NCBI RefSeq assembly: GCF_000423825.1
Contig: NZ_AUIS01000017.1
Location: 1-52,217 of the forward strand
Source: Thermithiobacillus tepidarius DSM 3134
GTDB taxonomy: Bacteria; Pseudomonadota; Gammaproteobacteria; Acidithiobacillales; Thermithiobacillaceae
DNA length: 52,217 nucleotides
Direction of reading: 5' to 3'
Position numbers and translations under genes: made by a program. Positions 42,258 through 45,959 of this stretch are shown here, in pieces. The notes under the pieces were generated by a model. That model saw only the letters and a program-made list of their open reading frames with translations. It was not told the origin of the DNA and searched no databases. Positions within the stretch are counted from its first letter, which is position 1. Each line of letters begins with the position of its first letter.

Positions 42258-44102
<1,845 letters not shown>

Positions 44103-44108
44103 CGCCGC

Positions 44109-44142
44109 CTGTCACATCACTGTCACATGCCTGTGCCACAAT
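44109..44142 (+). promoter_or_regulatory. Pho box and -10 element before the EAL-GGDEF gene
   Basis: CTGTCACATCACTGTCAC (44109-44126) matches the PhoB consensus, two CTGTCAY repeats 11 bases apart, in 16 of 18 positions. A third, weaker repeat CTGTGCC starts at 44131, again in 11-base phase. CACAAT (44137-44142) begins exactly 10 bases after the box, the geometry of PhoB-activated promoters, with the start of translation at 44172. Confidence 0.7.
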
Positions 44143-44171
44143 GAGGATTCCGATAACGATAAGGCACAGCC

Positions 44172-45959
44172 ATGGGAGTCCCGCAAGTCGGCAGTCTGCT
44201 GCATGACGTCCTGGAAACAGGCGCGCTGCGCACGGTATTTCAACCCATCGTCTGCATGAACAGCCGGCTGGCCTACGGGGTCGAAGGCTTTCTCCGCGGC
44301 CCGCCCGGCCATCCTCTGGAGTCGCCGCTGGCCCTCTTCGCGGAGGCGGAACGCGAAGGCTTGCTGATGCCGCTGGAAGCCCAGGCCCGCACTGCCACGC
44401 TGGCGGCCTTTGCGGGCCTGGGCTTTCCGGGCAAGCTCTTCATGAACGTCAATCCGTCCTGCCTGCTGGACCCGCGTTTCCAGGCCGACGCCCTGCTCGC
44501 CGCCCTGGGGCAGGCCCATCTGGCGCCCCAGCAGGTGGTGCTGGAGCTGACCGAACACCACCCTATCGATGATTTCGCCAGCCTGCACGCGGTGGCGGAG
44601 GATTTCCGCCGGCAGGGGGTGGGCATCGCCATCGACGACCTGGGGGCCGGTCACGCCAGCATGCGCCTGCTCTGCGAGCTGCGTCCCGATTTCCTGAAAA
44701 TCGACAAGTTCTTCGTGACCCGCCTCGACCATGACCCGGTCAAGCGCAAGGTGGTGCGCGGCATCCTGGGCATGGCGCGGGCGGTCGGGGCGCGGGTGGT
44801 GGCGGAAGGCGTCGAGCGCTTCGAGGAGCTGCGCGTGCTCATGGACATGGGGGTGGATCAGGCCCAGGGCTATCTGTTCGCCCGGCCGCAGGCGATCCCT
44901 GATCCGGCCGCCCTGGCCCGCTTCTCCTGGCCCGAGCTGGCAGCCGCGCCCGTGTCCAGCGAGCTGACCTTCGGCACCGCCGCCTTGCTGCTGCAGCATG
45001 CTCCTGCCTTTCCGCACGACATGCGGGCGGCGGAGCTGCTGGATTACCTGGGCCGGGAGGGGCAGGCGATGACCGCGATTCCGGTGGTGCGGGATGATCG
45101 CCCGCTCGGCCTGATTTCGCGCCCGGAGTTCCAGGAGCGCATGGCCCGGCTCTACGCGCGCGAGCTGCTCGGTCGCGAGCCCATTGCCAATTTCGTGGTG
45201 CCGGACTCCCTGATCGTGGACAAGAACGAGCCGCTGGACCTGATCAGCCATGACCTGACGCGCCAGCACGAGACCGCGCAGACACGCTACCCGCTGGACT
45301 ATTTCCTGATCACTTCGCACGGCCGCTATGCCGGCGTGGGCAGCGCCCTGAGCCTGCTGCGCCGGATCACCGATGCGCAGATGGATCTGGCCCGCCATGC
45401 CAATCCGCTGTCCGGGCTGCCGGGCAACATTCCCATCCAGCGCCGCCTGGAGGGGTTGCTGAAGCAGCAGGTGCCGTTCACCGTCGGCTACTGCGACATC
45501 GACAACTTCAAGCCCTTCAACGACGTCTACGGCTACGCCCGCGGCGACGAGATGCTGCGCGAGCTGGCCCAGATCCTGGTGCGCAGCACCGGCATCGAGA
45601 CCGGCTCCCTGCATCAGGATCTGCTCGACCACTTCGTCGGTCACGTGGGCGGGGACGACTTCGTGGTGATCCTGGCGGGGCTGGATCAGGAGCACATCTG
45701 GGCCGACATCCTCGACCGCTTCGCCCAGGTGGCGCCCATCTTCTACGATCCCGAGGACCAGGCGGCAGGCGGCATCCACACCCGGGACCGGCGCGGCCAG
45801 ACTCAGTTCTTTCCTGTCTCCAGCCTGTCCATCGGCGTGGTGCCCTGCCCGGTGGGGCGCTTCACCCACCCCCAGGAGATCGCCCACGCCGCCAGCATGG
45901 TCAAGGCGCAGGCCAAGCAGCGGCCGGGCAACCAGCTCTTCGTCGATCGCCGCCAGTGA
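44172..45959 (+). CDS. Cyclic di-GMP enzyme, EAL-CBS-GGDEF architecture
   Basis: 595 residues. The EAL domain (about 1-255) has the motif written EGFLRG instead of EALLRG, with MNVNP, LELTEH, IDDLGAG, LKIDKFF and VVAEGVE retained, so the metal ligands are present. A CBS-pair-like linker (about 265-405) follows, then a GGDEF domain (about 410-585) with motif GGDDF and DIDNFKPFNDVYGYARGDE. No RxxD inhibitory site precedes GGDDF. There is no membrane helix. It could hydrolyse and make cyclic di-GMP; which activity dominates is not decidable here. A Pho box precedes the gene. Confidence 0.92.
   Translation: MGVPQVGSLLHDVLETGALRTVFQPIVCMNSRLAYGVEGFLRGPPGHPLESPLALFAEAEREGLLMPLEAQARTATLAAFAGLGFPGKLFMNVNPSCLLDPRFQADALLAALGQAHLAPQQVVLELTEHHPIDDFASLHAVAEDFRRQGVGIAIDDLGAGHASMRLLCELRPDFLKIDKFFVTRLDHDPVKRKVVRGILGMARAVGARVVAEGVERFEELRVLMDMGVDQAQGYLFARPQAIPDPAALARFSWPELAAAPVSSELTFGTAALLLQHAPAFPHDMRAAELLDYLGREGQAMTAIPVVRDDRPLGLISRPEFQERMARLYARELLGREPIANFVVPDSLIVDKNEPLDLISHDLTRQHETAQTRYPLDYFLITSHGRYAGVGSALSLLRRITDAQMDLARHANPLSGLPGNIPIQRRLEGLLKQQVPFTVGYCDIDNFKPFNDVYGYARGDEMLRELAQILVRSTGIETGSLHQDLLDHFVGHVGGDDFVVILAGLDQEHIWADILDRFAQVAPIFYDPEDQAAGGIHTRDRRGQTQFFPVSSLSIGVVPCPVGRFTHPQEIAHAASMVKAQAKQRPGNQLFVDRRQ

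Follow-up and report, generated by a model that had tools for sequence, protein, structure and literature searches.

The phoA and pstS promoters of Escherichia coli carry two CTGTCAT-type 7-mers, set 11 nt apart in place of a -35 element, with the -10 element following about 10 nt further on. In Pseudomonas fluorescens, expression of RapA at low phosphate takes place via PhoB and a Pho box, and the protein is a phosphodiesterase (PDE) in vivo (PMC3032545). PA3258 of Pseudomonas aeruginosa, an EAL-CBS-GGDEF protein, is a homologue of RapA (PMC12900916, a 2026 paper; PMC9394441), and untagged PA3258 in Salmonella displayed apparent PDE activity, as well as apparent diguanylate cyclase (DGC) activity once the PDE had been disabled (PMC12900916). 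The P. aeruginosa binding-atlas paper does not mention PA3258 in its main text. Here, we compare these systems with a locus of Thermithiobacillus tepidarius DSM 3134, contained in a stretch of 52,217 nt that was analyzed as a whole and is referred to as the window. An initial annotation of this DNA had proposed a PhoB promoter in front of an EAL-CBS-GGDEF enzyme and had pointed to PhoB control of an EAL protein in P. fluorescens, which matches RapA, with its PhoB dependence and Pho box (PMC3032545).

The predicted promoter region and its enzyme gene

The features of the locus are collected in Table 1. Direct reading bore out the two CTGTCAC repeats in exact 11-base phase that had been described, and also the third, weaker repeat with a -10 ten bases on. 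The three repeats (starting at 44109, 44120 and 44131) are all 11 nt apart, the spacer between the second and third being ATGC, and CACAAT, which begins exactly 10 nt past the Pho box, has one base in common with the third repeat. The Pho box scores 14/14 against CTGTCAY-N4-CTGTCAY and 17/18 against CTGTCAYAWAWCTGTCAY; the earlier count of 16 consensus bases out of 18 holds if T is required as the 7th base. The genome was examined by pattern and family searches and through selected stretches. CTGTCA-N5-CTGTCA occurs exactly in two places of the whole 2.96-Mb genome, and since the other one (C21) ends in CAA and thus fails the last position, the window site is the sole 14/14 Pho box. CTGTGCC (44131-44137) recurs in inverted form as GGCACAG (44163-44169), so that the predicted transcription start is flanked by a 7-nt inverted repeat, which may be due to chance.

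Table 1 Features of the window around the EAL-CBS-GGDEF gene
Feature	Coordinates	Strand	Remarks
serS (seryl-tRNA synthetase)	42595..43863	+	further upstream
rof-like gene (Rho-inhibitor family)	43860..44102	+	overlaps the end of serS; stops 6 nt short of the Pho box
Pho box	44109..44126	+	CTGTCAC repeats 44109-44115 and 44120-44126, spacer ATCA; 14/14, unique genome-wide
Third, weaker repeat	44131..44137	+	CTGTGCC, same 11-nt phase; 5/7 match, read directly
Predicted -10 box	44137..44142	+	CACAAT, 4/6; 10 nt past the Pho box
EAL-CBS-GGDEF protein	44172..45959	+	595 aa, ATG at 44172; probable orthologue of PA3258/RapA
EAL domain	44208..44888	+	residues 13-239; Pfam 8.7e-50
CBS pair	44970..45401	+	about residues 267-410; Pfam CBS 8.8e-4, below cut-off
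GGDEF domain	45408..45956	+	from residue 413, signature GGDDF; Pfam 9.8e-13

The same genome encodes PhoB (TIGR02154, 319.9 bits, above the curated cut-off of 296.2) in a locus with the order phoB-phoR-pstS-pstS-pstC-pstA-pstB-phoU, which was assigned partly by position and sequence, one pstS being confirmed by Pfam. Candidate Pho boxes were found before pstS and before the genes for an OprP-type phosphate porin, PhoX and a zinc-dependent phospholipase C; a -10 starting in TA at 10 nt accompanies several of these boxes. The window Pho box matches the consensus better than all of these.

The EAL-CBS-GGDEF architecture given in the initial annotation was confirmed by Pfam for the EAL and GGDEF domains and, for the CBS pair, by Pfam CBS matches in 12/12 family members scanned (best 3.1e-17) and by two CBS-like alpha/beta units in the middle region of the predicted model of the protein (pLDDT 81.9). 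All eight EAL catalytic residues are present (E38, N92, E125, D155, D156, K176, E212 and Q232), while the RxxD inhibitory site, looked for in the GGDEF domain, is absent. A Foldseek search against the PDB matched the EAL domain alone among the top hits and returned nothing on a CBS ligand.

The window protein aligns with the protein of the PA3258 locus of P. aeruginosa at 40.4% identity over 591 columns (residues 1-589, E 6e-127). The gene at that locus (L166, in NZ_CP042268.1) has a box of its own, GCGTCATAAAACAGTCAT, scoring 11/14, with TGAAAT 10 nt on, and adjoins a gene for a carboxy-terminal-processing protease; from this neighbour, by way of the PA3257-PA3258 order, we take it to be PA3258. 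Because PA3258 is homologous to RapA and matches the window protein over its full length, the comparison with RapA is one of homology, beyond analogy, and the window protein is probably an orthologue of RapA, the link being made through PA3258.

Judging from the position of the -10, transcription would start near 44149. Our main reading, to which we give a probability of roughly 0.87 on the basis of sequence comparison, is that a PhoB-dependent promoter with this start drives a RapA-type enzyme apart from serS and the rof-like gene, and that the EAL domain of this enzyme lowers cyclic di-GMP. When phosphate is scarce, PhoR would phosphorylate PhoB, and PhoB~P would bind and occupy both CTGTCAC repeats, standing in for the -35 element. 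Sigma-70 polymerase would then use the CACAAT -10, and the enzyme gene, presumably induced in this way by phosphate limitation, would be read separately from the serS-rof operon. The net effect of the EAL domain would most likely be a reduction in cyclic di-GMP, the conserved GGDEF site might provide either control by GTP or a second, synthetic activity, and the CBS pair would read a cytoplasmic signal, probably a nucleotide-like one.

Conservation of the predicted promoter among relatives

A genome-contig scan and a search across the class using the CBS region supplied the relatives, with 43 distinct upstream regions; those with a single domain (EAL only in L048-L050, for the most part GGDEF only in L054-L073) were excluded from the family. 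A box of at least 11/14 is present in 29/43 upstream regions (mean 1.5 and maximum 6 in 200 shuffles) and one of at least 12/14 in 21/43 (mean 0.2 in 200 shuffles), figures in which the shuffles overstate the count of separate events, as the relatives are not independent and common descent could partly account for the conservation of the promoter. The remaining 14 of the 43 lack a box of at least 11/14. With the box picked blind to the -10, similarity to TATAAT in the relatives was highest at a spacing of 10; TATA-like sequences come up easily, and the CACAAT of the window matches at four of six positions only. Among neighbouring genes, which served as a control, a box of at least 12/14 was found in 2/87 compared with 21/43 in the family (Fisher p=2e-10); the two genes concerned are a phoB and a pstS. 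None of 40 unrelated EAL genes had a box of at least 11/14. In 14/15 EAL-first genes of a second sample, several of which look closely related, the joint score of box and -10 was 14 or more, against 0.14 in shuffles.

Several members of the family also have Pho genes as neighbours. One lies directly upstream of phoB (L180), another beside phoB (L181), a third within about 4 kb of phoB-phoR (L172), and a fourth between a PhoD-like gene and phnD-C-E-E, a phosphonate-type transporter (L124). A Pho-type neighbour, an OprP porin, was found at 1/40 unrelated EAL loci. Two family copies from draft assemblies (L044 and L051) have a frame broken near the start and no single open frame.

Within the window, allowing up to two mismatches to the Pho box gives two matches, one of them exact, against 0.70 expected, so that such a match is not rare in 52 kb and the box might be a chance repeat, or the site of another regulator. 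This explanation is very improbable, given that the exact site is unique in the genome, conserved together with its -10 spacing in relatives and absent from paralogues. A chance origin of the box was ruled out by the shuffles, the reverse strand, the neighbouring genes and the unrelated EAL genes. As the same pairing of box and enzyme recurs in relatives across many bacteria, the window promoter is very probably real, and the PhoB promoter originally proposed is supported, at the level of sequence, by conservation in the family, the genomic PhoB regulon and homology to PA3258 and RapA.

The enzyme gene might, on the other hand, owe most of its transcription to the serS-rof operon, with the box merely modulating its expression. 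It is on the same strand as serS and the rof-like gene, a gap of 69 nt separates it from the latter, and the nearest relative (68% protein identity) has the same order serS-rof-enzyme. That gap is nearly all taken up by the predicted promoter, and in the nearest relative the box and the -10 are kept while most of the remaining gap has diverged. Most of the relatives scanned, however, keep the box without serS-rof adjoining, and we regard transcription mainly from the operon as quite unlikely.

Direction of the cyclic di-GMP change and possible outputs

The EAL catalytic site is kept in 44/46 family members, the GGDEF site in all 46 and both sites in 44/46. The GGDEF site being invariant in the family, the window protein may be bifunctional. 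One relative, L010/L202 (G043), has lost the EAL residues with the GGDEF site intact, carries a 14/14 Pho box and has a PhoU-domain gene about 1 kb upstream; with a perfect Pho box and no EAL site, the Pho output there cannot be hydrolysis. A second member that has lost the EAL residues, L107 (G108), is without a good Pho box. The counts for the two sites, the L010 locus and the apparent DGC activity of PA3258 (PMC12900916) would all suit an enzyme that, once induced by PhoB, acts mainly as a DGC or is governed by its CBS pair, such that starvation raises cyclic di-GMP. We consider this unlikely for the window protein, in which 8/8 EAL residues are intact and whose counterpart RapA is a PDE in vivo (PMC3032545). 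The residue states of the EAL and GGDEF sites in the family, together with the activities of PA3258 (PMC12900916), lead us to favour a PhoB-induced enzyme that would be dominated by its PDE activity, with the GGDEF domain mediating control or a second activity.

A profile search for LapG (Peptidase_C93) found no match in the T. tepidarius genome and did find one in the control genome, Caulobacter; a search for LapD found no match in T. tepidarius, nor in the controls. Since LapG was not found, the dispersal output of RapA cannot simply be carried over. The suggestion that the logic known from P. fluorescens applies here thus stands as regards a homologous enzyme under a predicted PhoB promoter, but not as regards dispersal. 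The genome encodes four PilZ proteins, which are possible receptors of cyclic di-GMP.

The CBS module and comparison with known systems

Histidine kinases and CBS-GGDEF-EAL proteins were also found with the CBS module of the family at their front. The joint promoter score reaches 14 or more for 9/17 CBS-first proteins of the kinase group (0.43 in shuffles) and for 5/10 CBS-first genes of the second sample. CBS histidine kinases with Pho-type promoters include L134-L149, L208 and L215, and in several cases the gene after a CBS kinase codes for a receiver-domain protein of about 310 aa. The order phoB-phoR-pstS-CBS kinase occurs in two related genomes (L208 among them), and a CBS-GGDEF-EAL gene, L222 (G145), comes directly after a pst-phoU-phoB-phoR run. 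We found no published description of Pho-controlled CBS histidine kinases, within an incomplete coverage of the literature.

The presence of CBS kinases and CBS-GGDEF-EAL genes with Pho promoters or in phoB/phoR/pst loci suggests a phosphate-linked sensor module, the outputs of which would comprise EAL/GGDEF enzymes, histidine kinases partnered by a receiver protein, and CBS-GGDEF-EAL proteins. Whether the CBS pair is a widespread sensor of phosphate starvation, with interchangeable outputs and placed under PhoB promoters or in pho/pst loci, seems to us evenly balanced. If so, Pho induction would supply a second cytoplasmic sensor feeding cyclic di-GMP and two-component signalling.

Taken alone, the window locus fits the known RapA pathway; the interest lies in how widely the link extends and in the sharing of the CBS module. 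What was a single-species case, RapA in P. fluorescens, widens into a conserved connection of phosphate starvation with cyclic di-GMP across Gamma- and Betaproteobacteria, one that persists in a genome that gave no match for LapG, the known output, and the CBS module common to Pho-linked kinases raises a testable question, namely which signal is sensed at phosphate depletion.

In RapA of P. fluorescens Pf0-1, a PhoB-controlled cyclic di-GMP phosphodiesterase, a Pho box precedes the gene as it does in the window; its output runs through LapD-LapG-LapA, whereas the T. tepidarius genome gave no LapG match. PA3258 has the same active-site residues as the window protein and likewise a box and a -10, but its box is weaker (11/14) and its neighbour is a protease gene, compared with the 14/14 box and the serS-rof neighbours of the window gene. 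The classical phoA and pstS promoters resemble that of the window in the spacing of their repeats and the distance to the -10; they serve phosphate uptake, whereas the window promoter precedes the gene of a second-messenger enzyme.
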